NCBI GenBank assembly: GCA_902802795.1
Contig: CADCNI010000025.1
Coordinates: 1-58,371, forward strand
DNA: 58,371 nt
Direction: 5' to 3'
From: an uncultured Ruminococcus sp.
GTDB lineage: Bacteria > Bacillota > Clostridia > Oscillospirales > Acutalibacteraceae
Position numbers and translations under genes: made by a program. This document shows positions 3,979-56,185 of the stretch, one piece after another. Every line of letters begins with the position of its first letter. The first letter of the stretch is position 1. The notes below the pieces were generated by a model, which worked only from the letters and a program-made list of their open reading frames with translations, was not told the DNA's origin and did no database searches.

Positions 3979-3989
3979 CGCGATAATAA

Positions 3990-4274
3990 GAGCCTGTTTA
4001 GAATCTCTCCACGCACGTCCTGCTTGCATCTTTTCCGCCATATTTTGCCAAAATCCTCGTTAATACACAAAGTATTGCCTGCGGAGTACGCACACGCGGA
4101 GATTCTATAGCAATCCAAACAAACAAAAAGACAAGTTCGGCGCGCTGGTGAGCACATGGCTGCGTTGTCGTCCTAGGTGGGCACCAGCCCACCGTCGTCC
4201 TCCGCCTTGCCCTGCACTCACCATCATCGCCTCCTTTTGTCTCCCTGATTATTTGGATTGCTATAAACAGGCTC
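3990..4274. mobile_element. MITE family B, copy 1 (interrupted by a family A MITE)
   Basis: The element has 18-bp terminal inverted repeats, GAGCCTGTTTAGAATCTC, with the right repeat split by the family A insertion. It is flanked by TAA at 3987-3989 and 4275-4277, a 3-bp target duplication of the TNA type made by some IS5-family transposases. No reading frame lies within it. The left half is the reverse complement of the right half of copy 2 (53204-53373), so the two copies are in opposite orientation. Copy 1 lacks about 34 internal bases that copy 2 has. Confidence 0.85.
4108..4263. mobile_element. MITE family A, copy 1 (156 bp), nested in family B
   Basis: Terminal inverted repeats TAGCAATCCAAA / TTTGGATTGCTA are flanked by a duplicated TA (4106-4107 and 4264-4265), as made by IS630/Tc1-mariner transposases. 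Removing the element and one TA restores the uninterrupted terminal repeat of family B. The middle holds a strong hairpin, GGTGGGC-ACCA-GCCCACC. There is no coding capacity. Two more copies lie at 27728-27849 and 51115-51262. Confidence 0.9.
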
Positions 4275-32154: not shown

Positions 32155-33666
32155 TCAACGCTTGCTTTCGCCCGGCAATTTGCCTTTGATTTTTCCGGTC
32201 AGCGCGACGGCATTCTCACAGAAGAACGTATCACGCAGCAGGAAAATGCTGCCAAAATAGACCACCACTGCGACAGGAATGCCCACGCAGATAATGAGCC
32301 AATGGGAAGGCAGCAGCATGCCGGAAAGCAGACAACTCAATCCCATCAGCAGTGTAGCAATAAAATATTTGACACTGCACTGGGGAATCATACGGAATAA
32401 ATCGTAACCGTCCTTTTTGAGAATGACACACCCCATCAGGAAAGTAACGCCCTCCGCAAGCAGGCTGCCCCATGCCGCGCCATTGTAGTCAATCAGTACG
32501 ATGAGCAGACAACTGATCAGGACATTGGAAATCGCGGCAAAAAGCGTAAGATGCAGCACCGTTTTTTCCTTGCCGTTGGGAATCATGATGTCTTTCTGCA
32601 CAATGCTGGACAGCAGCACAAAGGCAAGCACAAAGCAAAGAATCCGCAGCGTCCCCACCGCGTTGTCAAACGCCTTTCCAGCGATCATCCAGATGACCTG
32701 CGGCGCAAACATGAAAAGGCCGCATACAATGGGATAGATCAGAATGGTTTTGAGCTTGATAGCCTTGGCCAGCAGCGAACGGTACATACCGGGATTTCCC
32801 TTATTGAGGTAATCCGTCATACGGGGGAGATAGACCGGACTCATCGCCATAAAGAAGGTGACCAGTATGGTATTGATCTTGACGGCGACATTGTAATAGC
32901 CTACCGCGTCATCCGTTGACAGCATGCCCAATATAAAGGTATCGAGCGAATTGTAGGCATTCATGGCAAACCGTGTGCCAAAGAAGATAATCACCGGCAC
33001 CAGATGCAGCATGAGGCGGTAATGTCCCACCGGAATAAAGTCCACATACTTTCTCGCGCGGACAAAATTGAAGATATTCGCGCCGGAGTTGGACACGGTG
33101 GTGATGATGATGTAGATAATCAGATCGTTCCGATTGTGAACCAGCAGAAACAGTCCCGCAACCGAAACGCACTGCACAATGATCTGTCTGACGGTAATAT
33201 ACAGATAATCCTCATACACACTGTACACCCAGTCGAGGCTCAGTGCCGACAGACCGATATTGATGCTGTAAATCAACAGATAGGTGCGGTACAGCGTAAA
33301 TTTGGGAACCGTCAGTATTAAGCCAAAGAGCAGCAGATAGCAGATCGCCGTCGCAATCAGATTGAGCACAAACAGTTCCTGCGCAAATCGGGTAAATTCT
33401 TTCCTGTCATTTCTGACCTTGGTTCCTTCGCGTATGGCATAGGTGTTGATGCCCATGGAAGCAATCAGCGTCAGAATGCTGACCACCGATTTTACCCATT
33501 CATACTGCCCGATGCCGTCCGAACTGAAAATACGCGTGATATACGGATAGGTCAGCAGCGGCACCAGAATGGTCAGCGTCATGCGAAGCGTATTGAGCGC
33601 CGTATTGATCTTGATGGATTTCTTTTTCAGCGCCTGGTTGTTAGCGGTTTGGTTTGCCTGACTCAT
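32155..33666 (-). CDS. Wzx-type polysaccharide flippase (503 aa)
   Basis: A MOP-superfamily exporter with about fourteen helices. The N-terminal LNTLRMTLTILVPLLTYPYITRIFSSDGIGQYEWVKSVVSILTLIASMGINTYAIREGTKVRND region is the standard signature of oligosaccharide-lipid flippases. It should move undecaprenyl-diphosphate-linked repeat units to the outer face, where the EpsG-like protein next to it could polymerise them. Its ATG overlaps the stop codon of the upstream glycosyltransferase (ATGA), so translation is coupled. Confidence 0.93.
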   Translation of the reverse strand: MSQANQTANNQALKKKSIKINTALNTLRMTLTILVPLLTYPYITRIFSSDGIGQYEWVKSVVSILTLIASMGINTYAIREGTKVRNDRKEFTRFAQELFVLNLIATAICYLLLFGLILTVPKFTLYRTYLLIYSINIGLSALSLDWVYSVYEDYLYITVRQIIVQCVSVAGLFLLVHNRNDLIIYIIITTVSNSGANIFNFVRARKYVDFIPVGHYRLMLHLVPVIIFFGTRFAMNAYNSLDTFILGMLSTDDAVGYYNVAVKINTILVTFFMAMSPVYLPRMTDYLNKGNPGMYRSLLAKAIKLKTILIYPIVCGLFMFAPQVIWMIAGKAFDNAVGTLRILCFVLAFVLLSSIVQKDIMIPNGKEKTVLHLTLFAAISNVLISCLLIVLIDYNGAAWGSLLAEGVTFLMGCVILKKDGYDLFRMIPQCSVKYFIATLLMGLSCLLSGMLLPSHWLIICVGIPVAVVVYFGSIFLLRDTFFCENAVALTGKIKGKLPGESKR

Positions 33667-34673
33667 GCCGTTCCCTCGCTCTCCTGGGGTTTGGACTGCG
33701 GAATGCGGATCCGCTTATTTTTATAGCCTACGATACGCGCGGCAACAGGCCCCGACGGATTAAGCCGCATCAGGACATTAAAAATCAGCCTGTCCTTAAG
33801 TCCCAGACTTCTCTTGTAGATGCCGTCGTAAATCAGACCGATGTTATACCGCGAAATCTCACCCTGTAAGCGATAGCGCAGCACATGGGAATATTTAAAC
33901 ATGACGATAAGGTTGAGTTTTTTCCTCTGCTCCGGCGTCACATCAAACGGAATGTGGGAAAAGGTAGTCATTCCCAGTGCGATGTTGGTCATTTCCCACG
34001 ACTGGTTGCTGGTATCCGAAATGGTAAACAGCTTTTGCTCCACCACCCGGAACGCCCCTCGCTTATCCTCCAGCATGCACAGAATGCTCACCACCTGCGG
34101 CACACGGGTATAGCCGTAGGTGTTTTGCCGGAACAGATATTCCCGCGCAATGTCCAGATTATAAACCTTTCCCGACATACAGATCAGATCGCCCTGAAGG
34201 TTGACCACTTCGTGTTCGCCGTTCGACATGTCCCAAAAAAGGTCGATAAATTCCCCTAAATCATGTACATCTTTGTAATCCTGAATAAAATAGCTCAGAT
34301 CATACAGGGAAAAATGCAGCGCGGCTATGCTGTCATCCAGATAACGGTAAATGCGCTCCACCGCGTTTTCAAGGGGAAAATCGTCATCCCCCATCAGCCA
34401 GCCCCATCTGGTCTGCGCCATCGTAAACACGCCGTTGATATTCACCGTGGAACCCACGTTGTCGCTGCGCACCTGCAGCCGGAGACGATCTCCGAAAAAA
34501 GCAGTATATTCCGCAATGGCATCCGCCACGTCATAATTGGAATGATTATCGGAGATGACGATGTCAAATTCCTGGCAGGTCTGGCGTCTGAGACAACCGA
34601 GCAGCTTTAGCAGACAGTCTTTTCGGTTGTAGGTGGGAATCATCACTGTGATTCTTTCGCCGTTCTTCACCAT
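33663..34673 (-). CDS. Glycosyltransferase family 2 (336 aa)
   Basis: The GT-A fold begins with ITVMIPTYNRKDCLLKLLGCLRRQTCQEFDIVISDNHS. Nucleotide-sugar and metal-binding acidic residues are in WGWLMGDDDFPLENA. A C-terminal helical part ends with KRIRIPQSK. I chose the ATG at 34673 (MVKNGER), 6 bases behind AGGAGG; an ATG two codons earlier touches that site. Acceptor and donor cannot be read from sequence. Confidence 0.9.
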   Translation of the reverse strand: MVKNGERITVMIPTYNRKDCLLKLLGCLRRQTCQEFDIVISDNHSNYDVADAIAEYTAFFGDRLRLQVRSDNVGSTVNINGVFTMAQTRWGWLMGDDDFPLENAVERIYRYLDDSIAALHFSLYDLSYFIQDYKDVHDLGEFIDLFWDMSNGEHEVVNLQGDLICMSGKVYNLDIAREYLFRQNTYGYTRVPQVVSILCMLEDKRGAFRVVEQKLFTISDTSNQSWEMTNIALGMTTFSHIPFDVTPEQRKKLNLIVMFKYSHVLRYRLQGEISRYNIGLIYDGIYKRSLGLKDRLIFNVLMRLNPSGPVAARIVGYKNKRIRIPQSKPQESEGTA

Positions 34674-34692
34674 ATCCATCCTCCTGATTCTT

Positions 34693-35748
34693 TTATGATT
34701 TTCCGCTGAGTACGGGAACAAATCGGTTGATAACCCACGTCATCAGCGTGCAGCAGAGCGTTACCACTGCCAGAACGATCATGACCATAAGAATCCTGAT
34801 CGGCCCATGCAGTGTCTCTATTGCCATCATTTTGCCGACCACACCGGTTGTCATGGCGATCATCAGATGATTCAGGCACATATACAGCAAACTGTTGTGT
34901 CCGATATAGCGCAAAGCACGCAGCTTCGTCAGGGATGGCGACAGCAGCAGAATGCCGGCCGTTCCCAGCAGCGCACCCAGCAGGAACAACGGATACAGTC
35001 CGTAGCTGCCTCTCGCCATCACGACCCGTTCATGGCTATGGTCAAACAGGAACCGGAGATTCAGCCGCGAAATCGCAAACACCGCGGCAAACAGCAAGGC
35101 GGCGGCTCCCGCCATCACGCCGCGTCCGCGCGCCGTTTTACCGCCTTCAATGAGTTTCCCCAGCAGCGGCTTGCACCGAGCGCCCACGGTGATAAAGAAC
35201 ACCGCCGTCAGCGCGATATCCAGCGAAAACGGCCAGCCGACCTGCCACAGCGGTGTGCGCAGCATGACATGGCTCATAGCGCCGCCCAAAGCGCCGCATG
35301 CCGTTCCCAGCAGAAGAACGGTATATCCGACACGTTCGCCCCATTTCTTTTTTGCAACGCAGATCAGATAAAACACGCATTCCGCCACAAACAGCGTGGG
35401 CAAAAACCACAGTCCCGCTTCCCCGTAGGAACGGTTATTGGCGTAGGCAATGCGCATGAGCTGCTTTCCGTTGATTCCCTGCGCATAAATCAGCGCCCAA
35501 AGTATATACGGAATCAGCATCCGTCTGGCCTTGCGGCCCGCAAAATCACGAAAGCCGCGCAGGGAAGCATTCTCAGTATTCATCAGAAGTCCCGACAGAA
35601 AGAAAAAGAGAGGCATATGAAACGAGGCGGCAAACTGCTGCCACACCTCGCTGGTCAAACCTTTCATATGACCCAGGATTACCAACAAAATCCCCAGTCC
35701 TTTGGCAACGTCGATTTCCTCGATTCTTTTTGATTGCAAAGCCCTCAT
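34693..35748 (-). CDS. Membrane acyltransferase, family 3 (351 aa)
   Basis: Acyltransferase-3 proteins have about ten helices and acetylate or otherwise acylate sugars at the membrane. The RIEEIDVAKGLGILLVILGHM motif with its conserved histidine, SFHMPLFFFLSGLLM, and the RKARRMLIPYILWALIY block are all characteristic. AGGTGG precedes the ATG at 35748, which overlaps the region just after the previous gene's stop. It is one of two such enzymes in the operon, so the glycan probably carries two different acyl groups or sites. Confidence 0.93.
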   Translation of the reverse strand: MRALQSKRIEEIDVAKGLGILLVILGHMKGLTSEVWQQFAASFHMPLFFFLSGLLMNTENASLRGFRDFAGRKARRMLIPYILWALIYAQGINGKQLMRIAYANNRSYGEAGLWFLPTLFVAECVFYLICVAKKKWGERVGYTVLLLGTACGALGGAMSHVMLRTPLWQVGWPFSLDIALTAVFFITVGARCKPLLGKLIEGGKTARGRGVMAGAAALLFAAVFAISRLNLRFLFDHSHERVVMARGSYGLYPLFLLGALLGTAGILLLSPSLTKLRALRYIGHNSLLYMCLNHLMIAMTTGVVGKMMAIETLHGPIRILMVMIVLAVVTLCCTLMTWVINRFVPVLSGKS

Positions 35749-35751
35749 ATC

Positions 35752-36594
35752 TCAGCACCACCTTTTTTGAATGACTGCTTTTCTGCCGTCAAAAAAGCCC
35801 CGTCGGATGTTCGACAGCTTTTCCTTTTTGTTGTCCTCGTACAGCAGCACCATCAGGTATTGCTTGGCCACCTGCGCATAGGATTTGGCAATCCGCGCGG
35901 CGCCGCCCCGCTTGCGTGCCAGCACCATCGTATTTCTCGCAATATAGTATTTTCGGAAGGCACCGTGATTTTTGACCCTCACCGGCCAGAAAAGAAACCG
36001 TCTCACTGTGATATTGCCGATTTCATGCAGAAGAGCGACCCGATTGACACGGTAAATGCGATATCCCTTTTTGCGGATTCTGTAGCAGAAGTCAAAATCC
36101 ACGCCGTCGATGAACATGCTCTCGTCAAAGCCGCTGACCGCTGCCCATGCGGCCAGATTGACCAGTGACGCAGAGGTAATGCATTCCGTCATCTCGGTGA
36201 CGGGTTTGTCCCCGCCCTTGGTGCCGAGGTCGTGGTTTCTGTCTTTGATGACAGGGCAGAGCAGCCCCGCGTCCTCCGTGAGATGCTCCTCATAGGCGGC
36301 GATCATATCGTCGGGACAAACCGAGTCCTGGTCTAAGGTCACCACATAACCATAGCCGTCGTCGGCCGCACGTTGGCAAATCTGATTGAGCGCCTTGGCA
36401 ATGCCGACATTGCTTTCATTGGCAATGAGGATCGTCTGGGGATACTCCGCCAGCAGCCGGGTGATCTCTTCCCGATTGTCGCTGCCGTTATCCACGCAGA
36501 TGACGGAAGCGGCCTGCGGACAGACGGCTTCCAGATTTTCACGCAGTCTGTCCGTATCGGGACGATACAGAACAATGCCTGCCGGAATATTCAT
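35752..36594 (-). CDS. Glycosyltransferase family 2, rhamnosyltransferase-like (280 aa)
   Basis: The N-terminal AGIVLYRPDTDRLRENLEAV, then VICVDNGSDNREEI, SNVGIAKALNQICQRA and VVTLDQDSVCPDDMI match the RfbN/RgpF-type rhamnosyltransferase subgroup, where DQD replaces the usual DxD. The acceptor is unknown. A short MDWxxFDFCYRIRKKGYR-type block (DGVDFDFCYRIRKKGYRIY) is the family's second acidic motif. Confidence 0.88.
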   Translation of the reverse strand: MNIPAGIVLYRPDTDRLRENLEAVCPQAASVICVDNGSDNREEITRLLAEYPQTILIANESNVGIAKALNQICQRAADDGYGYVVTLDQDSVCPDDMIAAYEEHLTEDAGLLCPVIKDRNHDLGTKGGDKPVTEMTECITSASLVNLAAWAAVSGFDESMFIDGVDFDFCYRIRKKGYRIYRVNRVALLHEIGNITVRRFLFWPVRVKNHGAFRKYYIARNTMVLARKRGGAARIAKSYAQVAKQYLMVLLYEDNKKEKLSNIRRGFFDGRKAVIQKRWC

Positions 36595-36624
36595 GTATAT
36601 TACAACCTTTGTTTTTTAATAGTA

Positions 36625-37542
36625 TCAATAACAGCGGCACAGCACGGCCACCCAGTTGATGATATCCGCCGAGCGGATGCCGCAGCGGATCCGCTTGTCT
36701 CCCGCCAGTGCCAGCGTTTTGCCGATGGAATCGCGATACCCCGCGATCTTTTGCGAAAGCTCGTACACATCCGGCGGCATGTCGTCGGCATACACTTTGA
36801 GCAGTTCCCTCGCCTGATTGTATCGCCTGTCGCGAAACCGACCGAATACATTGGTCACCGACTCCACACGCGTCCAGAACCCCTTCCCGTGTTCGGTCAC
36901 CGTGCCGATATGTCTCCGGAAAGAAATGCGACTTTCGGGATCAAAAACCACCTGACCGCCGCAGGCAAGACAGATGTAATAAACCGCCGCGTCGTGGCTG
37001 AAAAGATTGCCCATTTCCGGCGTAATGCGGAAACGGCGGCATTGGTGAAACAGCCCCCTGTCAAACACCATTGTGCAGCCGGCAATCCGCTGCCGCGAAA
37101 GCGCCGCCCCATAAGTGGTCCTCAGACCGGGAAAAGGATTATTATACATAAACTGCAAATTCTCATCCACCACACGAAGACCCGAAGCATACAGCTTCAC
37201 GCTGCTCCCCGTCTGTTCCAGCAGTTCGACCGCACGCGACAGTTTATCGGCATCCCACACGTCATCCTGGTCGGAAAAAGCATAGTAATCATATGTATCG
37301 TCCGCCGCCAGCAGCATATCGTAAAAGCTGCGCCGGAATCCGATGTTCTCTCCAAAAACACAGCGGACATTGGCATTGAATGCCTGTATGTCCTTCATGA
37401 TGCCCGATGTGCCGTCCTGCGAGCCGTCGTCGCGAATCAGCAGCGTTACCTCCACACCCGTCTGCGCCAGAATGCTTTCCGCCTGCGCACGGAGATAGCG
37501 CTCTCCGTTGTAGGCGGATAAAATCACAAAAACCTTTTTCAT
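36625..37542 (-). CDS. Glycosyltransferase family 2, RgpB/WbbL-like (305 aa)
   Basis: The GT-A start KVFVILSAYNGERYLRAQAESILAQTG is followed by IRDDGSQDGT and YYAFSDQDDVWDADKL, which carries the acidic motif of this rhamnosyl/galactosyltransferase subgroup. The C-terminus is shorter than in some relatives. The gene overlaps the GT8 gene by four bases (ATGA), which shows translational coupling. Confidence 0.9.
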   Translation of the reverse strand: MKKVFVILSAYNGERYLRAQAESILAQTGVEVTLLIRDDGSQDGTSGIMKDIQAFNANVRCVFGENIGFRRSFYDMLLAADDTYDYYAFSDQDDVWDADKLSRAVELLEQTGSSVKLYASGLRVVDENLQFMYNNPFPGLRTTYGAALSRQRIAGCTMVFDRGLFHQCRRFRITPEMGNLFSHDAAVYYICLACGGQVVFDPESRISFRRHIGTVTEHGKGFWTRVESVTNVFGRFRDRRYNQARELLKVYADDMPPDVYELSQKIAGYRDSIGKTLALAGDKRIRCGIRSADIINWVAVLCRCY

Positions 37543-38552
37543 TGGCGCTCCTTCTTGATGTTCTTGCGGAAAACCATCGGGCGGATTTTATTATACAACA
37601 CCGATACCAGCAAAATCATGAGCGGTCGGGGCAGCACATGACAGATATTGGCAAATATGCGGGTACTTTTTTTACGTGTGCTTTCTTTGAGCGGCGCATC
37701 CTTCCAAGGGGTCAGCGCTTTATAATGGAGATAGGCATCCTTGTGAGGATGATCGCTGTCCGCCACCCACGGACGGCGGTTGACGTAAAAGTTGCCTGTG
37801 TAGTGGGTGATAACGGGATGCAGCCGCGCATCATAAAATTCCTCCTTGCCGTAGGAAAAATGCAGGGGATGACGCAGGTGCATCAGTTCTTTGTATTCAA
37901 ACAGATAAACCAGAGAATTGACGTTGTACTTCTGGGGCAGAATCTTGACCTTCCCGCAGAAGGCGGAATTCAGGATGGTCTGGTCATTGAAAACAAAGTA
38001 ACCGTTATTTTCATACACCATCTTCAAAAAGAGCCCGGTGACGTTGTCCTCTCTCCATTTTTTCAGATTAAAGAGAAGCATGCCCGCGTTGCAGTAAACG
38101 CCGTCGCCCGTCATATCCACAATGTCACGGTATTCCCGGCTGAGGCAATCGTCTACGCCAGCCATGTAATATCCCGTCAGATCTGTGTTCCACAGGTCGT
38201 CCAGCTTATCTTCGATAACGGTGTCCGAATCAAGATACAGCACCTTGTCTATCGTTTCCGGCACATATTCCGTCAAAAAAAGACGGTTGTAACCGAAACC
38301 CAGCCATCCCTTTTTGCTGGTTTTCAGGGTGATATTGAGTTTTTTGGACCAGTTGGGCATCTTCATAAACGTAATCGTCCGCCCATATGTTTCCGCCAAC
38401 TGCTGCAGCTTTTCCTTGTTTGTCTGAGACATACCTTTTTCGATATACAAAACATGAATCTCTTCAAAATGTCGGTTGTTTTCAAACAGCGACGCGATGG
38501 AAACACCTGTCACATCCGCAAAGGCATCACTGCTGTGATAGATTACATACAT
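37539..38552 (-). CDS. Glycosyltransferase family 8 (337 aa)
   Basis: GT8 enzymes transfer glucose or galactose with retention. The opening MYVIYHSSDAFADVTGVSIASLFENN, the GYNRLFLTEYVP loop and the DSD metal motif in VLYLDSDTVIEDKLDDLW are diagnostic. ITHYTGN near residue 250 and the KPW-like RPWVADSDHPHKDAYLHY complete the domain. Four bases overlap with the following GT2 gene. Confidence 0.93.
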   Translation of the reverse strand: MYVIYHSSDAFADVTGVSIASLFENNRHFEEIHVLYIEKGMSQTNKEKLQQLAETYGRTITFMKMPNWSKKLNITLKTSKKGWLGFGYNRLFLTEYVPETIDKVLYLDSDTVIEDKLDDLWNTDLTGYYMAGVDDCLSREYRDIVDMTGDGVYCNAGMLLFNLKKWREDNVTGLFLKMVYENNGYFVFNDQTILNSAFCGKVKILPQKYNVNSLVYLFEYKELMHLRHPLHFSYGKEEFYDARLHPVITHYTGNFYVNRRPWVADSDHPHKDAYLHYKALTPWKDAPLKESTRKKSTRIFANICHVLPRPLMILLVSVLYNKIRPMVFRKNIKKERQ

Positions 38553-38620
38553 TGACTCTCACCTGCTGACTGTAATTAATTGGTATCGTATCATACAAAA
38601 CGGCTCTCGACGGGATGGTG

Positions 38621-39658
38621 TCAGTTCTTCGCGATCACACACATGGCTTTTTGAGCATCCTCAGGAGTATAGCGATGCCTCAGTGTGTCAGGCATTTCTT
38701 TCAGAATCCGGTTGATCTCCACAAAGGACAGCCGGTATTGACTGCGGTAGCACAGCGCGTATTTGTAAGCCGTGCGGTAAAGTGCGGGCAGCAGCCGTGT
38801 CACGGAATACCCCCACAGGGCGGTAGACAAATGCCGATCGACGATCTCGCACACTTCCAGCACTTCTTCAAAGTTATAGTGCCCGCCGCGTGACGCGTTG
38901 AGATACGACGCAATCAGCTCGGTTTGCAGATTACCCGCGCCCTGTCCCATGCCGATGGCGCAGGCATCCGCAATCAGCGGTCGGTCGGTTTCTATCCCGA
39001 TAAAGGAAAGTACGTTGGCATAGGCGAGATTCATATTATTGTGCGCGTGGAAACCGATGTGGATGGAGGGATTCAGTTTTTGATCGTATTTGCGGAAGAA
39101 CCTCATCACATCCTGGGTCTGCATATAGCCGTAGCTGTCCACAAAATAAAGCGCATAGGCTCCCATTTTGTTGGCCTGGTCGATGATGAGATCAAGTTCT
39201 TCCTCCGTGTAGCGCATGGTGAGCATCGGCTGCACAAAGACCTTGTAGCCCTTGGCCGCCAATCCCGCGCAGAAATCCAGCGATTTCTGCAATTCGGAAT
39301 AACGGATGATCACGCGCAGACCGTCCACCAGATCAGGGTTCCAGTCGGGAATATCCTCCATCGGCGTATCGGGACCGCGAAAGAGTCCCACATACAGACG
39401 GCTGCGGTCGCGGTTCTTGGGAATAACGGCGGAAACCGCCTCCACATTCTGATAAATGGCGTAGCCGCGCCTGTCGTCCTCGGTGATGTCGATGGAACCC
39501 AGTTCTATAATATCCAGCCCCGCACGGTTGAGGTGGTAAGCCACCTGCTCCCGTTCCTCAGCCGTAAATCTGTCGTCCGCGATTTTGTTTTTTAATGCGT
39601 CCTCCAACCCCAGACCGCCGTCGCGCAGAGTGCAGTCCAACAGCTTGATTTGCCCCAT
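38621..39658 (-). CDS. DRE-TIM aldolase of the 4-hydroxy-2-oxovalerate aldolase/HMGL type (345 aa)
   Basis: The N-terminal KLLDCTLRDGG holds the D-R-D signature of the DRE-TIM metallolyase family, which condenses or cleaves 2-oxo acids with a divalent metal. A VDSYGYM block and the metal-binding HIGFHAHNNMNLAYAN (HxH) are intact. Isopropylmalate- or citramalate-synthase regulatory domains are absent, so it is a simple aldolase-like enzyme of about the size of 4-hydroxy-2-oxovalerate aldolase. Inside a polysaccharide operon it is likely to make a small acid for decoration, not to degrade aromatics. No acetaldehyde dehydrogenase partner is present. Confidence 0.85.
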   Translation of the reverse strand: MGQIKLLDCTLRDGGLGLEDALKNKIADDRFTAEEREQVAYHLNRAGLDIIELGSIDITEDDRRGYAIYQNVEAVSAVIPKNRDRSRLYVGLFRGPDTPMEDIPDWNPDLVDGLRVIIRYSELQKSLDFCAGLAAKGYKVFVQPMLTMRYTEEELDLIIDQANKMGAYALYFVDSYGYMQTQDVMRFFRKYDQKLNPSIHIGFHAHNNMNLAYANVLSFIGIETDRPLIADACAIGMGQGAGNLQTELIASYLNASRGGHYNFEEVLEVCEIVDRHLSTALWGYSVTRLLPALYRTAYKYALCYRSQYRLSFVEINRILKEMPDTLRHRYTPEDAQKAMCVIAKN

Positions 39659-39669
39659 ATTATTCCTCC

Positions 39670-40764
39670 CTATCTATGCCGTGCGGCAAAAAGCCGCCCT
39701 GCGCGTACGCACAGTTCTTTCGCCATAAGCGGCACAGCTACGCCGGCGAGCGCATACACCGCAAACATAAGCGGCTTGTAAACCACGCTCTGCGTGAAAT
39801 AAAGCACAAAGGCGTAAATGCCCGTCAGCCAATGTCCCGTTACGATTTTATTTTGCAGCACCGTCACAACAAAAAACACATAGTAATGCCACTTCAAGAC
39901 GGTCAGTGTGCGCTCCCCGACATATACAACCGGCTTGGTGATCGCTTTGGACAGCGCATCCGCCGTTTCCAGCGTCATATAAATGCCCAGCAGATGCAAC
40001 AGGGGAACGAGCAGGGGATTTCCCAGCCGCATCTGGATCATGTTGAAATCCACATAGCACGCTGCGGCCGCCAGCACGCCGAAGCACGCGGCAGGCAGCG
40101 TATAGCGGCAAACCTCCCGGTTAAAGCGTGACAGCCGTTCATACAGCCGATACTTCCGGCAAAGCACGCCGAGATCAAAGACAAACAACCCCAGCGACAC
40201 CAGAATATACGCCCGCAGCAATCCACCGCGTGAGGGAAGCAGATAAGCGACCGCATACAGCACCAGCACGGTGATATGAATGACCGATTCCGGTAAACGC
40301 AGCGCTGTTTTGAGTTTTGTAAGCAGGCAGAATCCCACGCTCACAAACATGAGAATCGGCAAAAACCACATCGGCGCCACGACGTCTTCCATCTTGACGC
40401 ACAACAGAATTTTCACCATATATTTCAGAAAACCGACTGCCGACGTAAATCGGTCAGCCGGATCATACAGTCCGATACGGCAGAAAAACGGATGAAAGAC
40501 CAATGCAATGAGATTACAGATCACAAACGGCAGGTAAAGCCCTTTGATCTTTTTACCGACGTAACCCACCACGTCATCCGCCGCGCTCTCTTTGAAGCAA
40601 TAGCCCGACAGGAAGAAAAAGAGCGGCATGTGAAACAGATAAATCCACTGTCTGATGAGAAGCGACGGGACGCAGTGCCCCACCACGACCAGACAAATGC
40701 CGAGTGCCTTGGCAGCGGTGACGTAATCCAGACGTCGCGCGCTCTTTTGTTTTAACTCCGGCAT
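39670..40764 (-). CDS. Membrane acyltransferase, family 3 (364 aa)
   Basis: RLDYVTAAKALGICLVVVGHCVPS with the catalytic histidine, IYLFHMPLFFFLSGYCFKES and the KIKGLYLPFVICNLIALVFH block identify it. About ten helices follow. It lies between the aldolase and the dehydrogenase, with a 13-base overlap to the dehydrogenase gene, so the three are translated together. That placement suggests it transfers the acid made by its neighbours, though most members use acetyl-CoA. Confidence 0.92.
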   Translation of the reverse strand: MPELKQKSARRLDYVTAAKALGICLVVVGHCVPSLLIRQWIYLFHMPLFFFLSGYCFKESAADDVVGYVGKKIKGLYLPFVICNLIALVFHPFFCRIGLYDPADRFTSAVGFLKYMVKILLCVKMEDVVAPMWFLPILMFVSVGFCLLTKLKTALRLPESVIHITVLVLYAVAYLLPSRGGLLRAYILVSLGLFVFDLGVLCRKYRLYERLSRFNREVCRYTLPAACFGVLAAAACYVDFNMIQMRLGNPLLVPLLHLLGIYMTLETADALSKAITKPVVYVGERTLTVLKWHYYVFFVVTVLQNKIVTGHWLTGIYAFVLYFTQSVVYKPLMFAVYALAGVAVPLMAKELCVRAGRLFAARHR

Positions 40765-41813
40765 AGCAGCGGTTCCTCTCCGATTTCTCCGAGCAGGCGG
40801 TTGAGCGAAGCAACCACTCTTTCGGGCAGCTCCACACCGTTGGCCAGCGCGTCCTGACGGTAGATCTCATTGATATCGCCCGGCGCCATCACCGCATTTT
40901 CAGAGGCGGCAGTGTTTGCCGGCGCGGCCGCCGATTGTCGCACCCGTTTCAGGTACGCGTCGGCTTCGTCGTAAAAGGACTCCCCGTACACCGCTTTGGG
41001 GTCAATGACCACCATCATATGCCCCACATTCATGCAGGCGTTGTCATCCGAATAAAACCGTCCCACGCCGTCAAGATACGCCGCGTGCGACAGCAAACCC
41101 GCCGTCATGTCAATCGCCATCGAAAGACCGTACCCCTTGGGTCCCGCCATGGGGAGAATGAGTCCCTTGACAGCTTCTTTCGGATCGTTGGTGGGCTGAC
41201 CGCTGCCGTCGGTGGCCCAGCCGAAAGGAATGGTGGCATCCCCGTTGTGAAGTGCCTGATTGATCTTGGACTTGGCAACGGCACTGGTCGCCATATCAAA
41301 CAAAAAAGGCTTTTCGTGACGGGCAGGAATGCCGACCGCCAGCGGATTGGTACCCAGCAGCTTTTCCCTGCCGCCCCATGGTGCCATCTGCGCCGGAGAA
41401 TTACAGGAAACATAGGAAATCATGCCCTGCTCCGCCGCGTATTTGACATAGCAGTAGGCGGCGCTGAAGGTATTAGCATGATGACAGAACACGGCATACA
41501 TGCCGTGTTCCCTTGCTTTCTCCACCGCCAGCCCCATCGCTTGCCATGCCGAAAGCATCCCGATCATATTGTGGGCATGGCATACCGCAAAGGCCGGCTT
41601 TTCGGTCTCCACCGTCAGCAACGCGCCGATATCGTACCCGTCGCGGCATTTTTTCAGATGCGCCTCCGTCATTGCCACGCCATGCGTGCCGATGCCTGCC
41701 AGCTCCGCTTCCATCAGACAGTGCGTCACCACGGCGGCATTTTCCTCCGCAAGCCCTGCCGCCGCAAACAGCTTTTGGAGTGCCGTTCTCAATTCGGATT
41801 CAGCAATCCTCAA
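40752..41813 (-). CDS. Malate/L-lactate dehydrogenase family (Ldh_2) oxidoreductase (353 aa)
   Basis: These NAD(P)H enzymes, unrelated to classical LDH, reduce 2-oxo acids to 2-hydroxy acids. Blocks seen are LMEAELAGIGTHGVAM, CHHANTFSAAYCYVKYA (catalytic His region), PWGGREKLLGTNPLAVGIPA, LFDMATSAVAKSKI and GPKGYGLSMAIDMTAGLLS. Length is normal. The start is a TTG at 41813, 8 bases behind GAGGG; a nearby ATG is in another frame and closes at once. Upstream lies rfbG (10 bases away). Beside the aldolase it may reduce a 2-oxo acid to a hydroxy acid for attachment to the glycan. Confidence 0.9.
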   Translation of the reverse strand: MRIAESELRTALQKLFAAAGLAEENAAVVTHCLMEAELAGIGTHGVAMTEAHLKKCRDGYDIGALLTVETEKPAFAVCHAHNMIGMLSAWQAMGLAVEKAREHGMYAVFCHHANTFSAAYCYVKYAAEQGMISYVSCNSPAQMAPWGGREKLLGTNPLAVGIPARHEKPFLFDMATSAVAKSKINQALHNGDATIPFGWATDGSGQPTNDPKEAVKGLILPMAGPKGYGLSMAIDMTAGLLSHAAYLDGVGRFYSDDNACMNVGHMMVVIDPKAVYGESFYDEADAYLKRVRQSAAAPANTAASENAVMAPGDINEIYRQDALANGVELPERVVASLNRLLGEIGEEPLLCRS

Positions 41814-41823
41814 AGCGCATCCC

Positions 41824-42879
41824 TCAATCTTTCAGAAATTCTTCGATCTGACGATCCATGCAGGCTCTCACGTCACCGCCGTTCAGCCAGCACTTGCTCC
41901 ATTCCACCACCTTGGCAATAGCGGTATCCAGATTCCAGCGCGGCTGCCAGTCAAAAGTGGCCTTGAGCTTGGAGCAGTCAAGTTTGAGGAAATTCGCTTC
42001 GTGCAGACCGTCATCGGAAGAACGGTCTATCCATTCCAGACCGTCCCCCCAGTGCTTCACAAAGAGATCCACCAGCGCGCCGGTACGGAAGCAGTCGCGG
42101 TCGTCGGGACCAACATTGTACCAGCCCGCGTATTTTCTGTCTTCATACTGCGCCGCCGCGATCATCAGATAGGCACAGACCGGCTCCAGCACATGCTCAT
42201 AGGGTCTGGTGGAGTAGGGATTTCTCACGATGATAGTCTCTTGCTTCTGCGCGGCGCGGACACAATCGGGAATAATGCGGTCATTGGCAAAATCGCCGCC
42301 GCCGATGACATTGCCCGCTCGTGCGGTGGAAATCGCCACGCGTCCGTCGGCAAAAAAGCTGTTTTTGTAGCTGTGGGTCACCAGCTCGGAGCAGGATTTG
42401 GAATTGGAATAGGGGTCGTACCCATCCAGTTCCTCGCTCTCACGGTAACCCCATGGCCATTCTTTATTGAGATACACTTTGTCTGTCGTCACATTGAGAA
42501 ACGACACGACACAAGTGCTGTTGCGCACACATTCCAGAATATTGACGGTACCCATCACGTTGGTTTCGTAGGTGTAGGCGGGATTTCTGTAGCTGTCGCG
42601 CACAATGGGCTGCGCCGCCAGATGCAGTACAATTTTCGGCTGCGCCTCGTCAAACGCCGCTTTGAGCGCGTCATAATTTCGGATATCCCCGATGACCGAG
42701 TGAACGTCACCGGCAATGCCCGCAATCTCAAACAGGGACGGCTGCGTGGGCGGCTGAAGCGAATAACCCGTCACTTCGGCACCCGCATTGGCCAGAATCT
42801 TGCACAGCCAAGAGCCTTTGAAGCCCGTGTGTCCCGTCACAAACACCTTTTTCCCTTTGTAAAAATTCAAATCCAACAT
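41824..42879 (-). CDS. rfbG: CDP-glucose 4,6-dehydratase (351 aa)
   Basis: This short-chain dehydrogenase-type enzyme converts CDP-glucose to CDP-4-keto-6-deoxyglucose. The NAD-binding VFVTGHTGFKGSWL (GxxGxxG), HLAAQPIVRDSYRNPAYTYETNVMGTVN and the TDKVY / YDPYSNSKS active-site block (with Tyr and Lys) are present. The start ATG at 42879 follows GGGAGG. It is the second gene of the operon, after rfbF. No gene for the next CDP-sugar steps (RfbH, YerE or reductases) is recognisable in the operon, so the final sugar is unclear. Confidence 0.94.
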   Translation of the reverse strand: MLDLNFYKGKKVFVTGHTGFKGSWLCKILANAGAEVTGYSLQPPTQPSLFEIAGIAGDVHSVIGDIRNYDALKAAFDEAQPKIVLHLAAQPIVRDSYRNPAYTYETNVMGTVNILECVRNSTCVVSFLNVTTDKVYLNKEWPWGYRESEELDGYDPYSNSKSCSELVTHSYKNSFFADGRVAISTARAGNVIGGGDFANDRIIPDCVRAAQKQETIIVRNPYSTRPYEHVLEPVCAYLMIAAAQYEDRKYAGWYNVGPDDRDCFRTGALVDLFVKHWGDGLEWIDRSSDDGLHEANFLKLDCSKLKATFDWQPRWNLDTAIAKVVEWSKCWLNGGDVRACMDRQIEEFLKD

Positions 42880-52325: not shown

Positions 52326-53204
52326 ATGCGCGTTTTTGCTTTGGAACTCAACAATGACGTCAAGGGCATTGAGCAAAGGAAAGATTACATCGAGGAATTA
52401 ATCAAAAAACTTCCGTTGCCGGAGCTGGTGGTGCTGCCGGAGCTGGCGCTTTGCAGCTATATGGCGAGTCAGGAAATCTGGCAGTATGCAGACGACTGTG
52501 GCCGGAACACATCGGAATGGGCCATTGCTATGGCAAAAAAATACAATACATACATAAGCGTCGGCTATCTGGATAAAGAAAACGGCGATTATTACAACCG
52601 ATACATGATTGCCGGATCGGAAGGCGTTTGCGGGTATGTTTCCAAATCAGAAGGAGAAAGCGCGCTATTCAAACAGGGCGACTTCAGCAGCATCATTGCA
52701 ACGCCTTTCGGAAAAATCGGCGTTGCCATTTGTTATGATTCACGGCGCAGGCATTTCTATGAAAACGTGAAAGAAGAGGAATTGTCCATGATTCTCTTTC
52801 CGCACGGAGCACCGGCCGACCCGAAGCAGCCCGAAAAAGAACACCGGGAAAATGATATCCGATGCATGATGTACGTCGAAGCCTTCGGCGTGCCGGTCGT
52901 GTATGTCAATAGCAAAGGAAATCTGGAATATATGCCCGGAATGATGGGCAAAATGATGAAAAAACACGGCTTCCGGATGAACGGCATGAGCAGGATTTAC
53001 GCAAATGACGCGGTTCCGATAGATACCGGTGTTACGGAAGCGATTGCAGCAGAGGTCGCAGTATCTCCTAAACGGCGGATAAAAGAAATCAAATTTCATG
53101 AGGAAGATATTCTCCCCGGAAACTGGCTTTTCAGACATCTGATCCTTGCGCCAGATACAAAAGCCGGTCTTAAGTCTTACGAGGCCAACCGCGGGAATTC
53201 TTAG
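52326..53204 (+). CDS. Carbon-nitrogen hydrolase, nitrilase superfamily (292 aa)
   Basis: The Glu-Lys-Cys triad is recognisable: Glu in VVLPELALCSYM, a lysine in the KSEGESALFKQGD region or KEHREND, and the nucleophile in IGVAICYDSRRRHF. Members hydrolyse amides or nitriles; the substrate cannot be told. Length is normal for the superfamily. The stop codon TAG uses the first base of MITE copy B2 (53204), so the original C-terminus may have been longer. It is probably co-transcribed with the MmcQ/EVE gene. Confidence 0.85.
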   Translation: MRVFALELNNDVKGIEQRKDYIEELIKKLPLPELVVLPELALCSYMASQEIWQYADDCGRNTSEWAIAMAKKYNTYISVGYLDKENGDYYNRYMIAGSEGVCGYVSKSEGESALFKQGDFSSIIATPFGKIGVAICYDSRRRHFYENVKEEELSMILFPHGAPADPKQPEKEHRENDIRCMMYVEAFGVPVVYVNSKGNLEYMPGMMGKMMKKHGFRMNGMSRIYANDAVPIDTGVTEAIAAEVAVSPKRRIKEIKFHEEDILPGNWLFRHLILAPDTKAGLKSYEANRGNS

Positions 53205-53373
53205 AGCCTGTTTAGAATCTCCGCGTGTGCGTACTGCGCAGTCAGCTTTTTCGCCAGATGAAGCCAAAACCGCAGGCAATACTTTGTGTATTAACGAGGA
53301 TAACGAGGATTTTGGCAAAATATGGCGGAAAAGATGTAAGCAGGACGTGCGTGGAGAGATTCTAAACAGGCTC
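53204..53373. mobile_element. MITE family B, copy 2 (170 bp)
   Basis: Perfect 18-bp terminal repeats GAGCCTGTTTAGAATCTC. Flanks are TTA (53201-53203) and TAA (53374-53376), which are not direct repeats of each other, unlike copy 1. It contains a duplicated AACGAGGAT internally and about 34 bases missing from copy 1. Both neighbouring genes end in it: the nitrilase stop uses its first base and the ABC exporter stop lies in its right terminal repeat. Confidence 0.85.
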
Positions 53374-53676
53374 TAAGAGATGCTCCATGAGCCGCGCCTT
53401 GAAAATATTTTCAAATGTGGCTTTGGAAAGCTCGTCCAGCCATCGCAGAATGGCCCTGAGACCGATTTGTGCGAGTACGAGCAGAGCAGTCATCATCGCA
53501 AAGTGCCAGAATCCGGCTTGGTCATGTGAAGTGGCGGCGTCCACGATGCTCCGCAGCAGCAGCGCATACAGAACACCGCTTGCCCCGTGAAGCGCCTGCA
53601 CGACAATCAGGGCAAGGATATACAGTTTCTTTTCTTTTGGAACGGCGTAGAGCCATTGGATTGTATGATTTTTCAT
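53362..53676 (-). pseudogene. Truncated ABC exporter (first ~100 residues)
   Basis: The ATG at 53676 overlaps the peptidase stop codon (ATGA). The frame gives MKNHTIQWLYAVPKEKKLYI followed by two membrane helices (LIVVQALHGASGVLYALLLRSIVDAA, then FAMMTALLVLAQIGLRAILRWLDELS), the start of an ABC_membrane domain. It breaks off at FKARLMEHLL, and the last residues and TAG stop come from the MITE terminal repeat. A complete half-transporter of this type has about 550-600 residues, with the ATPase domain at the C-terminus; all of that is missing. It would have exported a peptide product of the cassette. Confidence 0.85.
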
Positions 53677-54096
53677 CGTTTCAGTTTCCGTTTTATCCGT
53701 TTTATCTTGTCCCTCACATAAAAAACAGGACGCTTGATCCATAACAGGTCGACCCACAAATGCACATATACCTTGTAGGGAATAAAATCTACACTGTGCC
53801 ACTTTCCTCTGCGGCAATATTCCGTGACGATGCCTTTGATCTGTTCCGGTTTCACATATTCCAACTGCCAGCAGTTGTCTCCGCAAATGACATATTCATT
53901 TTCCCGAACCCGTATCACACCAAGTTCCTCCCCACGCACATACATGACAAGGTCATAGCGTTTTGGGGGCTCTTTTAGTTTCTCGATGACAACTGCGTCT
54001 CGCCCCCCCTCTGATCATAGGACGCATACTGATTCCCTTAGGAACGCTGATATATCGACCGTTATGCTCCAATAATTCCAATTGTGCCTTACCCAT
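53673..54096 (-). pseudogene. S24/S26 signal-peptidase-like protein, frameshifted at a G7 tract
   Basis: The ATG at 54096 overlaps the end of the kinase gene. The first part, MGKAQLELLEHNGRYISVPKGISMRPMIRGG, holds the catalytic serine of S24/S26 peptidases in SMRPMI. At a run of seven C on the plus strand (54003-54009) the frame is lost. With six, it reads on as RDAVVIEKLKEPPKRYDLVMYVR and VICGDNCWQLEYVKPEQIKG to 53673, giving 140 residues. The residue before RV in the GVIRV segment is Ile where relatives usually have His or Lys, so activity is doubtful even if the frame is restored. Relatives in such cassettes probably cleave leader peptides. Slippage, pseudogenisation or a sequencing error are all possible. 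Confidence 0.75.
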
Positions 54097-54826
54097 GATA
54101 CATTCCCTCAAAAGCGATCTTTGCCGCCGATAATTCCATGTTGCAACCCAGCCGGTAAAATCTGACCTGTTCGGTCAGTGTATCTATCAGTGTGAGCGTT
54201 TTCATCATCTTCACGCTGTCGGGAGTACGGTACACCTGTTGCACCAGCAGCGGATAAGCCTGTTTTACGGTAATTGGTTCAATGTGGTTTTCCTCGGCTC
54301 TCGTTAAAATACAGATAGCTTTCAGCGGTACGGCAATATTATTACCGCGCCGGTGCTTGCCGTTGTAGGGCGTTCCGTAAACCGTGACACCATTTGTCCC
54401 GACATGAATCAACGGCTTATCATCATTTACCATCACAGCTCTGTCACCGAAATAATCCCGCCACAGCTTTGTATGCGTGGATTTGCCCGTGCCGGACTTT
54501 GCCGTGAAAAGATAGCCAATGCCGTCCACAGCGATGACAGACCCATGAAAAAGTATCGTATCAAACACTATCATCTGTTCCGCAATCTTGCGGTAAACCG
54601 CCAGTTCCTCCAGATAGCTGTCGAAAAAGTGCCGGACGGGAACACCTTCGATTTCGTCCTCACGGGCAGATTTCTCCCGCTCAGAATCAATGTCGCCTTG
54701 TGTAGTGGTCACGAAATAATCAGGTGTTTCGTCCGTCTGATAGTCGGCGCAGTAGGTATGAACCTCATCATACAGCGAATTGATTTCCACCACCTTGCCC
54801 GCCATTTTGTAGCGGTTACTTACCAT
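54089..54826 (-). CDS. HPr kinase-like (HprK-related) kinase (245 aa)
   Basis: The P-loop FTAKSGTGKSTHTKLW (about residues 97-112) follows LFHGSVIAVDGIGYL, the usual lead-in of HprK-type kinases. VMVNDDKPLI is the probable Walker B region, and GTPYNGKHRRGNNIAVPLKAICIL resembles the family's later catalytic loop. True HPr kinase has an extra N-terminal domain and is larger. HprK-related kinases of this short type occur in lasso-peptide and related RiPP clusters, where some phosphorylate the precursor's C-terminal residue. The start overlaps the nucleotidyltransferase stop by 11 bases. Confidence 0.85.
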   Translation of the reverse strand: MVSNRYKMAGKVVEINSLYDEVHTYCADYQTDETPDYFVTTTQGDIDSEREKSAREDEIEGVPVRHFFDSYLEELAVYRKIAEQMIVFDTILFHGSVIAVDGIGYLFTAKSGTGKSTHTKLWRDYFGDRAVMVNDDKPLIHVGTNGVTVYGTPYNGKHRRGNNIAVPLKAICILTRAEENHIEPITVKQAYPLLVQQVYRTPDSVKMMKTLTLIDTLTEQVRFYRLGCNMELSAAKIAFEGMYHG

Positions 54827-55919
54827 ATTTTCTCACAGTCCTTACCATTCTTTTCAGATATTTTCTACGAGTCCCTAAACTGCGCCCCCAACGATAAACG
54901 ATTCCCGCGGGATATAGCAGCGGATATTTGTTGACAAACGCCACGGAACGTCTCATGTAAGCGATATCAGGGAACATCTGCCGCAGAATAAAGCCTGCTT
55001 TTGACTGGTCTTCCAGCTTCTTTTTGACAAAATTCTCCCATTTACCGTATGTTCCCGCTGTAAGATAGTACATCAGCATTTCCTGTTCCTGCTCCGTCAG
55101 ATCGGGAAGTGTATCAGCCGAAAACACCTTTTCCGCAAGCTGTCTGCGCTTCTGCTCAAAATCGGCTATTGCAAGCTGTCTGCATTGTTCCGTGATATAC
55201 GCCCAATCAAGGGTATCACCCTTGACCTTGCCGTACACATAGCAATCCAGCAGGGACCGTACACCCGTACCGCCGCCGTTAAAATGTTTCCATTCGTGGG
55301 CAGTCATATAGACATAAAAATCTTCATCGGAAAAATGATAGCCGTAATGACTGTCCTCATCCCTGCGTAATAACCGCTTGGTATCGGCATAATACCTATA
55401 AAAAGGATCAGAAAAAGTATCACCAAACAAAGCTGTATGCAGCTCGAAATTTAGCATGGGCGGCTTGTGATAGACATCGTGGTAAGACTTACCGACACTC
55501 TCCGCCATATAGCCATACATAAGCATGATATGCATAACCTGCTCCTGCCTGTCGGCATCGAACAGAATATCATTGTCTGCCATTTCACGCATACCGTTTT
55601 CGGGATAGAGCTCTTTCAGCACCGCGCCTTTCAGCGGCATATACCAAATACCCTGCTTTTCAAATTCCGACAGGATAGCTTTGCGCTCCATATCAAGATA
55701 AATATTTTTTCGGACAGCCTTCTTATAGGCCTGATCGAAAGGCTTATCCTCAACGTCTGCCGATTTCAGAGCAATGCAGACGGCAGCCCTCACAGAATGA
55801 GATGCCGCAAGACGATAGAGTTTTTCCAAATCCATAGATTGTACTCTCATCATTTCGGGCGTGAACCCGTTCACGCCGCAAAACAGCAAATAAATCAGGT
55901 CCTTTTGTATGTCGTTCAT
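54816..55919 (-). CDS. NTP_transf_5 family nucleotidyltransferase (367 aa)
   Basis: The motif MPLKGAVLKELYPENGMREMADNDILFD (about residues 93-120) is the nucleotidyltransferase core with the acidic pair of DND. NFELHTALFG and a helical C-terminal half (YVYMTAHEWKHFNGGGTGVRSLLDCYVY) complete the typical family pattern. In Firmicutes lasso-peptide clusters such proteins act as tailoring enzymes on the peptide. Its ATG overlaps the PqqD stop codon (ATGA), so the two are translated together. Confidence 0.88.
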   Translation of the reverse strand: MNDIQKDLIYLLFCGVNGFTPEMMRVQSMDLEKLYRLAASHSVRAAVCIALKSADVEDKPFDQAYKKAVRKNIYLDMERKAILSEFEKQGIWYMPLKGAVLKELYPENGMREMADNDILFDADRQEQVMHIMLMYGYMAESVGKSYHDVYHKPPMLNFELHTALFGDTFSDPFYRYYADTKRLLRRDEDSHYGYHFSDEDFYVYMTAHEWKHFNGGGTGVRSLLDCYVYGKVKGDTLDWAYITEQCRQLAIADFEQKRRQLAEKVFSADTLPDLTEQEQEMLMYYLTAGTYGKWENFVKKKLEDQSKAGFILRQMFPDIAYMRRSVAFVNKYPLLYPAGIVYRWGRSLGTRRKYLKRMVRTVRKYGK

Positions 55920-56185
55920 TCTTCCAACGCTCCAATGGAACGCAGCTTGCCGATGATATCCGCCACATCACGCGTGACAACGGCACGGTCTGCCCCTTCA
56001 TATTCCGCTAGGATTCGGTCAACGACGGCACTTTCCGTGGTATCTGATTTCAGACATTCGATGATGAATGCCGCAGTTTCGTTATTCCTCACAATACCCT
56101 TGAATTTTGTATCGCTGGTGCTTATCATATAATGCTCGCCTTTTGTTTCGTGGGTGAGAAAATGGGGATTCAGTTTCATACGCAT
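55916..56185 (-). CDS. PqqD family peptide-binding protein (89 aa)
   Basis: PqqD domains bind the leader of a ribosomal precursor peptide and bring it to modifying enzymes. The sequence MKLNPHFLTHETKGEHYMISTSDTKFKGIVRNNETAAFIIECLKSDTTESAVVDRILAEYEG has the strand-strand-helix layout and the N-E-T-A-A-F-I block (usually N-xx-g-xx-I-w). Full length. The start is the ATG at 56185 behind AAAGGAAG; the frame extends 6 codons more without a site. It is the first gene of the five-gene cassette. Confidence 0.9.
   Translation of the reverse strand: MRMKLNPHFLTHETKGEHYMISTSDTKFKGIVRNNETAAFIIECLKSDTTESAVVDRILAEYEGADRAVVTRDVADIIGKLRSIGALEE

Follow-up and report, generated by a model that had tools for sequence, protein, structure and literature searches.

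A decayed clostridial relative of linear polyphosphorylated peptide clusters with a probable link to the cell surface

What does a peptide-modification cassette make when no known cyclase accompanies it? This question is raised by contig CADCNI010000025.1 (assembly GCA_902802795.1) of an uncultured Ruminococcus sp., whose whole analysed stretch of 58,371 nucleotides is called the window here. Five minus-strand genes, spanning 53362 to about 56185, lie in series: those for a PqqD-domain protein, an NTP_transf_5 nucleotidyltransferase, an HprK-like kinase and an S26-like peptidase are followed by an ABC exporter gene of which only the beginning is present. The first-pass annotation saw in them either a separate type of ribosomally synthesized and post-translationally modified peptide (RiPP) system, employing phosphorylation and an S26-type leader peptidase without a cyclase, or what remains of a lasso-peptide cluster after gene loss. 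The former was right in kind, the gene set being that of the linear polyphosphorylated peptide (LPP) RiPPs (PMC13381572). With a probability of roughly 0.8, we conclude that the window holds the decayed copy of a clostridial LPP variant, whose peptides would work at the cell surface.

LPP RiPPs of Bacilli were published in May 2026 (PMC13381572). According to the main text of that report, the lpp gene set comprises a RiPP recognition element (RRE), an HprK-like kinase, a signal peptidase I (SpI)-like peptidase, an NTP transferase and an MsbA-like exporter. Kinase and leader-peptidase action was demonstrated for the Paenibacillus cluster, lpp of Paenibacillus alginolyticus, and the biological role of the peptides was stated to be unknown. 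As far as the main text describes the Bacilli system, the clostridial one shares with it the same five enzyme and transport gene types, the lack of a cyclase, an SpI-like peptidase with Ser, His and Asp, and short precursors with a YxxPx[hydrophobic] leader. In the printed LPP motif the conserved Ser stands 18 residues past the Tyr by our count, compared with 19 in the clostridial family. Polysaccharide genes lie near the cassette on the window contig and downstream of a sister cassette (locus L031: GT1, PS_pyruv_trans and Bac_transf), fitting the capsule gene context reported for Bacilli. Homology and gene context show that a matching precursor is accompanied by an RRE, a kinase, a leader peptidase, an exporter and an NTP transferase.

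Each of these parts was compared with its LPP counterpart. The discrete RRE appears to be of the Tyr-binding kind; its family profile (A3) matched the solved RREs TbiB1 (6.3e-11), TfuB1 (3.5e-7), LppB (9x8z, 8.8e-6, a match not exclusive to LPP systems) and PbaB1 (9x90, 1.2e-5), and the equivalents of LppB N33 and D70 are invariant and near-invariant, respectively, in the family. The kinase was assigned through weak profile matches: Hpr_kinase_C falls under the Pfam cut-off, and the NCBIfam models ScmC (9.2e-6) and hpr-ser (8.1e-4) also match under their cut-offs. Both the P-loop and the N[DG]DKP motif are kept in the window kinase and its relatives, and a sequence-profile search returned no related solved structure. 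Alignments of 15 and 27 relatives revealed invariant Ser, His and Asp in the S26-like peptidases of related loci. The fold of this family is of the signal peptidase I/LexA type on a second look at Foldseek's own ranking, and among solved structures its profile matched signal peptidases only (best 3.9e-4). The NTP transferase is intact in the window, where the exporter is truncated; the exporter of L031 is intact, with ABC_membrane and ABC_tran domains (Pfam).

Related loci were collected from a survey of 300 genomes of the same family as the window genome and from a genome collection. Kinase relatives occurred in 135 of the 300 family genomes at E ≤ 1e-3 and in 113 at E < 1e-20, and the genome collection held at least 590, making the clostridial variant a common one. 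A set of 120 loci was assembled from 40 family-genome loci and the best 80 of the 590 relatives (one genome-collection scan); L031 and L094 lie on the same contig, as perhaps do others, and many loci are cut by contig ends. These best 80 are mostly metagenome-assembled genomes (MAGs) labelled Ruminococcus, Oscillospiraceae, Lachnospiraceae or Clostridia, many of them from rumen and gut, and include isolates of R. flavefaciens, Coprococcus catus, Kandleria vitulina and F. prausnitzii. PqqD lay within 4 kb of the kinase in 99 of the 120 loci and S26 within 5 kb in 90; both were present in 85 and neither in 16.

Scanning small frames near the cassettes revealed a conserved peptide family. Its members mostly have 30–60 residues and follow the consensus xxEKYxxPEMExxEFExEDVITTS, after which comes a variable, often acidic core. 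The first-pass annotation had suggested looking for a conserved small frame in related genomes, and one was found: 47 of the 120 loci have a precursor no more than 5 kb from the kinase, so homologues of this PqqD do occur near small peptide genes. A single regular expression, allowing Ser at +17 to +19, parsed 68 of 77 unique precursors; Tyr came first in 67 of these and Trp in none, and Ser was at +19 in 67. Two models were built, A1 from 13 rows and A5 from 45. The former, its rows being drawn from the 40 genomes searched, matched 35 of them at E ≤ 10; the latter matched 57 of the 300 family genomes at E ≤ 1e-3. The kinase was present in 56 of these 57 precursor-positive genomes versus 79 of the 243 others (Fisher 5e-22, kinship ignored). 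Four precursors tested against NCBIfam gave no match. The earlier statement that no recognisable precursor exists held for the window itself, where neither a six-frame regular expression nor the model found one; the genome has one on another contig (G000:C5:53852-53944, minus strand).

The precursors are scattered through the genomes, where they typically follow immediately after a gene for a large secreted protein. A dispersed set was drawn from 47 stretches in the genome-wide A1 and A5 match lists, leaving out matches near the kinase (one stretch, L072, has PqqD and NTP genes adjoining). It gave 50 unique precursors, of which 7 had no upstream gene in the stretch, 3 had one more than 450 bp away and 40 could be scored. 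Secreted proteins of at least 300 residues preceded 29 of the 40; for the other genes of these stretches the count was 27 of 188 (Fisher 8e-13, kinship ignored). The 29 follow 26 distinct genes, some homologous to each other. In a first set that pooled near and dispersed precursors, the corresponding counts were 41 of 64 versus 198 of 1245, with 13 of 77 precursors not scorable. One C-terminal domain is common to 26 of the 48 large proteins ahead of precursors. Seven proteins before precursors or cassettes were scanned for domains, yielding a varied set of transglutaminase-like, CBM26, Big_2, InlB/Listeria repeats and SdrD_B; two of the seven gave no domain.

Complete operons (L110, L120 and L143) join these parts in the order surface protein, precursor, stalked lipoprotein or anchored protein, HprK, PqqD, S26, ABC and NTP, and L120 carries two precursors. 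In L125 the order is surface protein, precursor, stalk, PqqD, NTP, HprK and ABC, which is the window gene order without S26. More generally, PqqD-NTP-HprK is the order in the window, L031, L092 and L125, and HprK comes first in L110, L120 and L143.

The tails of the stalk proteins resemble the core of the precursor at their own locus. An automatic test of own versus other-locus tails, covering 69 of the 77 precursors, gave p = 2e-4 for the summed score (the floor of 5000 shuffles) and seven strong matches (p = 6e-4). With hand-cut tails from the 17 loci that hold both parts, the sum was 376, whereas shuffled cores reached 233 and permuted loci 292 (p = 2e-4 each). The best case is L056, in which the precursor has GWSDWWTPEF and a secreted protein ends in GWSDWWTPEY; L047, L093 and L111 are weak cases. 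Another ending, ELPxxP-stop, is also found on a small dockerin protein encoded next to a dispersed precursor (G233), and on proteins of genomes G106 and G206 that bear dockerins and lie on contigs other than the cassette's. In stretches L175 and L176 of these two genomes, dockerin-bearing proteins end in YELPFVPAD, like the G206 stalk protein on the cassette contig.

An alternative view of the small frames is that they are appendages of surface proteins with another job, regulated by the kinase cassette, rather than RiPP precursors. Their frequent position directly behind surface-protein genes, their shortness and their strong variability past the leader would suit such a role. We nevertheless find it quite unlikely, as the leader has the [Y/W]xxPx[hydrophobic] motif of the RRE-binding type with a fixed Tyr-Ser spacing, the precursor genomes are nested within the kinase-positive genomes, and precursors directly adjoin HprK-PqqD-S26 in complete operons.

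On the reading of the system as an LPP-like pathway, its intact form would start from a small precursor with a YxxPEMExxEFExEDVITTS leader, which the PqqD-type RRE would hold via the Tyr. By analogy with LppK, the HprK-like kinase would phosphorylate the near-invariant Ser at the leader/core border. The S26-type Ser/His/Asp peptidase would then remove the leader by cleavage near this Ser, and the ABC exporter would release a short linear, often acidic peptide; at part of the loci the NTP transferase may add a further group. In gut and rumen Clostridia these peptides would act at the cell surface. One machine probably serves many surface-protein/peptide pairs, because precursors stand behind secreted-protein genes genome-wide and the stalk lipoprotein tails are core-like.

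A bolder version of this idea, offered tentatively and with somewhat worse than even odds, is that one kinase/RRE/peptidase cassette serves scattered precursors, each of which is the cognate partner of the surface protein before it. The stalked lipoprotein would then be a tethered copy of the C-terminal motif, and the phosphopeptides could be ligands, assembly pins or signals competing with the tail. If this is true, the system would be one for peptide tagging of bacterial surface proteins. The role of LPPs, left open in the main text of PMC13381572, would now point to the cell surface of gut and rumen bacteria, and the purpose of the peptides becomes testable as binding to the neighbouring surface protein or competition with the lipoprotein tail.

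Several observations weigh against placing the clostridial cassettes with LPPs and against their link to the surface. Clostridial leaders end in EDVITTS where the Bacilli consensus, YxxPxVLxHQxIxFETxxS in the main text of PMC13381572, has FETxxS; only YxxPx[hydrophobic] and the Ser are shared. Because the family departs from this full consensus, we file the clostridial system as an LPP variant, not a member. Even Pro at +3 was found in only 42 of the 68 parsed precursors. The A3 profile fits the lasso RRE TbiB1 better than LppB, and TbiB1 and TfuB1, the lasso RREs in the alignment, also carry the conserved RRE Asp, so the RRE by itself does not tell LPP systems apart from lasso systems of the Tyr type. 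Of the 120 loci, 63 have an ABC gene within 7 kb of the kinase and 51 an NTP gene within 9 kb. No precursor lay within 5 kb of the kinase in 73 loci, to which contig ends and model sensitivity contribute, and 79 of the 135 kinase-positive genomes had none at E ≤ 1e-3. The locus counts are not independent, since the loci come partly from close relatives. Signal peptides were assigned by our own heuristic, and other kinds of genes precede some dispersed precursors (e.g., L078, L090 and L235). The ELPxxP-stop pattern is rare, with 6 matches spread over 4 of 40 genomes and none in the reversed control, and is therefore one tail type among several.

Relative to Bacilli LPPs as described in that main text, the clostridial system further differs in its genome-scattered precursors behind surface-protein genes, its extra stalk lipoprotein with a core-like tail and its varying gene order, and a clear lasso B2 protease is found in only 1 of 300 host-family genomes. 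The main text of PMC13381572 contains no mention of Clostridia, Ruminococc, surface or dockerin; its supplement, outside this word search, may list clostridial members. Among publication listings and abstract beginnings we found no work linking such peptides to surface proteins, and likewise no publication that describes this type of leader, the pairing of precursors with surface proteins across the genome or the tails they share, the LPP kind itself being known since May 2026.

The window copy of the cassette is decayed (Table 1). The series and its overlaps of 4 bp (PqqD/NTP), 11 bp (NTP/HprK), 8 bp (HprK/S26) and 4 bp (S26/ABC) are real, as first described, but only the PqqD, NTP_transf_5 and HprK-like genes are intact. 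The PqqD start is at 56185, or at 56179 as in most aligned relatives (MKL...). The S26-like gene is split into two pieces in different frames, with the break near 54000. Alignment to its nearest intact relative, L094, with which it and the beginning of the ABC gene agree at 525 of 721 aligned bases, shows a further, in-frame loss of a net 12 nt; in the alignments of 15 and 27 relatives this segment holds the invariant His. The ABC frame keeps about its first 100 codons before a repeat element terminates it. With the S26 and ABC genes broken, the window copy is therefore probably dead, and the LPP-like pathway in the window organism is most likely off.

Table 1. Positions in the window of the cassette genes, repeat copies and neighbouring genes
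Feature	Position	Strand	Evidence
PqqD-type discrete RRE (LppB-like), intact	55916..56185	-	Pfam PqqD 4.6e-12
NTP_transf_5 nucleotidyltransferase (LppN-like), intact	54816..55919	-	Pfam NTP_transf_5 1.6e-42
HprK-like kinase (LppK-like), intact	54089..54826	-	Hpr_kinase_C 0.0064 (under cut-off); conserved P-loop, N[DG]DKP
S26/SpI-like leader-peptidase gene (LppS-like), broken	53673..54096	-	two-frame pieces, catalytic-His segment lost
ABC exporter gene 5' remnant (LppD-like)	53379..53676	-	matches N-terminus of intact 569-aa ABC protein, L031/L094
180-bp inverted-repeat element, like a miniature inverted-repeat transposable element (MITE)	53199..53378	.	39-nt inverted ends, 82% complementary; ends ABC frame
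Second, partial copy of the 180-bp element	3989..4107	-	sequence match to element
Polysaccharide-type genes, context, outside cassette	32155..42879	-	Polysacc_synt flippase, three GT2, GT8, two acyltransferases, HMGL-like, Ldh_2 (Ldh_2-like dehydrogenase), GDP_Man_Dehyd (GDP-mannose-dehydratase-like)

It could be argued that the cluster still functions in this organism, the frame break being a sequencing error and the exporter having been replaced by another ABC protein. The break does fall at a single-base run, a usual error site, the PqqD, NTP and HprK frames are intact, and one precursor is still in the genome. We consider this explanation improbable, however, because the loss of the catalytic-His segment is separate from the frame break and the ABC frame is terminated by the element. 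A profile search of the genome for a second S26 relative matched only the two broken pieces. In addition, the secreted-protein gene ahead of the precursor that is left has an early stop, after 102 codons, and contains another copy of the element (G000:C5:54306-54452). Members of the 180-bp MITE-like family lie in two or more of the pathway's genes; the family has 39 matching pieces genome-wide, a count that takes in the query itself and overlapping pieces.

The view of the cassette as a stripped lasso-peptide relic, having lost its cyclase and B2 protease, did not survive and is now very unlikely. Kinase, NTP transferase, discrete RRE and ABC exporter are types also known from paeninodin-type lasso clusters, and an HprK-like kinase, NTP transferase and PqqD occur in lasso clusters of rumen Firmicutes in the portion of PMC7533575 considered. 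The window PqqD weakly matches lasso_PqqD_Strm (NCBIfam, 8e-9, under cut-off), and the RRE profile is best with a lasso RRE. Against this, no macrolactam cyclase or B2 protease was found here, the peptidase is S26-type, with 90 of the 120 loci carrying its gene close to the kinase, and the leader has Tyr, not Trp. A regular-expression screen of the 120 loci, not a profile search, gave one cyclase match, which is TilS, and one B2 match in an implausible frame; no homologous locus with a confirmed lasso cyclase or B2 gene was therefore seen. The B2 profile PF13471 reached E ≤ 1e-3 in 38 of the 300 family genomes and passed its cut-off in 5, none of them the window genome. Four of the five were part matches in frames of 739–861 residues, and the one clear short B2 (9.5e-20) is in a genome without the kinase.

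The earlier observation that cyclase, transglutaminase-like protease and radical SAM genes are missing agrees with our Pfam scan of ten frames at 50–58 kb, which showed no cyclase, B2-like protease or radical SAM near the cassette (1–32 kb lay outside the scan). SynChlorMet systems also have an HprK-like protein (ScmC, TIGR04249), but the window kinase scored 25.2 bits against a cut-off of 125, and radical SAM genes are present in a minority of the relatives. A radical SAM or SPASM-like gene lies near the kinase cassette in L036, L056, L062 and L066 (two of the four scanned), perhaps for further precursor modification. As a constant partner it was rejected: the cluster concerned, C10, appears in just 4 of 40 family-genome loci, and the two scanned fell below equivalog cut-offs. 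A loose radical SAM regular expression matched in 16 of the 120 loci. The notion that the series is a chance run of open reading frames was ruled out by conservation, because 104 of the 120 homologous loci have PqqD or S26 near the kinase.

Outside the cassette, the polysaccharide-type genes of the window number ten. A DNA search of a plasmid collection with the PqqD-S26 stretch gave no match, and three weak protein matches to the kinase were obtained from the same collection. An ATP-grasp protein (ATPgrasp_ST) is encoded between the kinase and S26 genes at L062:7830-8969. The F. prausnitzii isolate contig L153 carries the kinase and two precursors, with no PqqD or S26 found within 4–5 kb. Cassettes L110, L154, L166 and L170 come from records titled Alistipes senegalensis, Synergistaceae, Atopobiaceae and Candidatus Physcocola, respectively, which may reflect MAG mis-binning or transfer.

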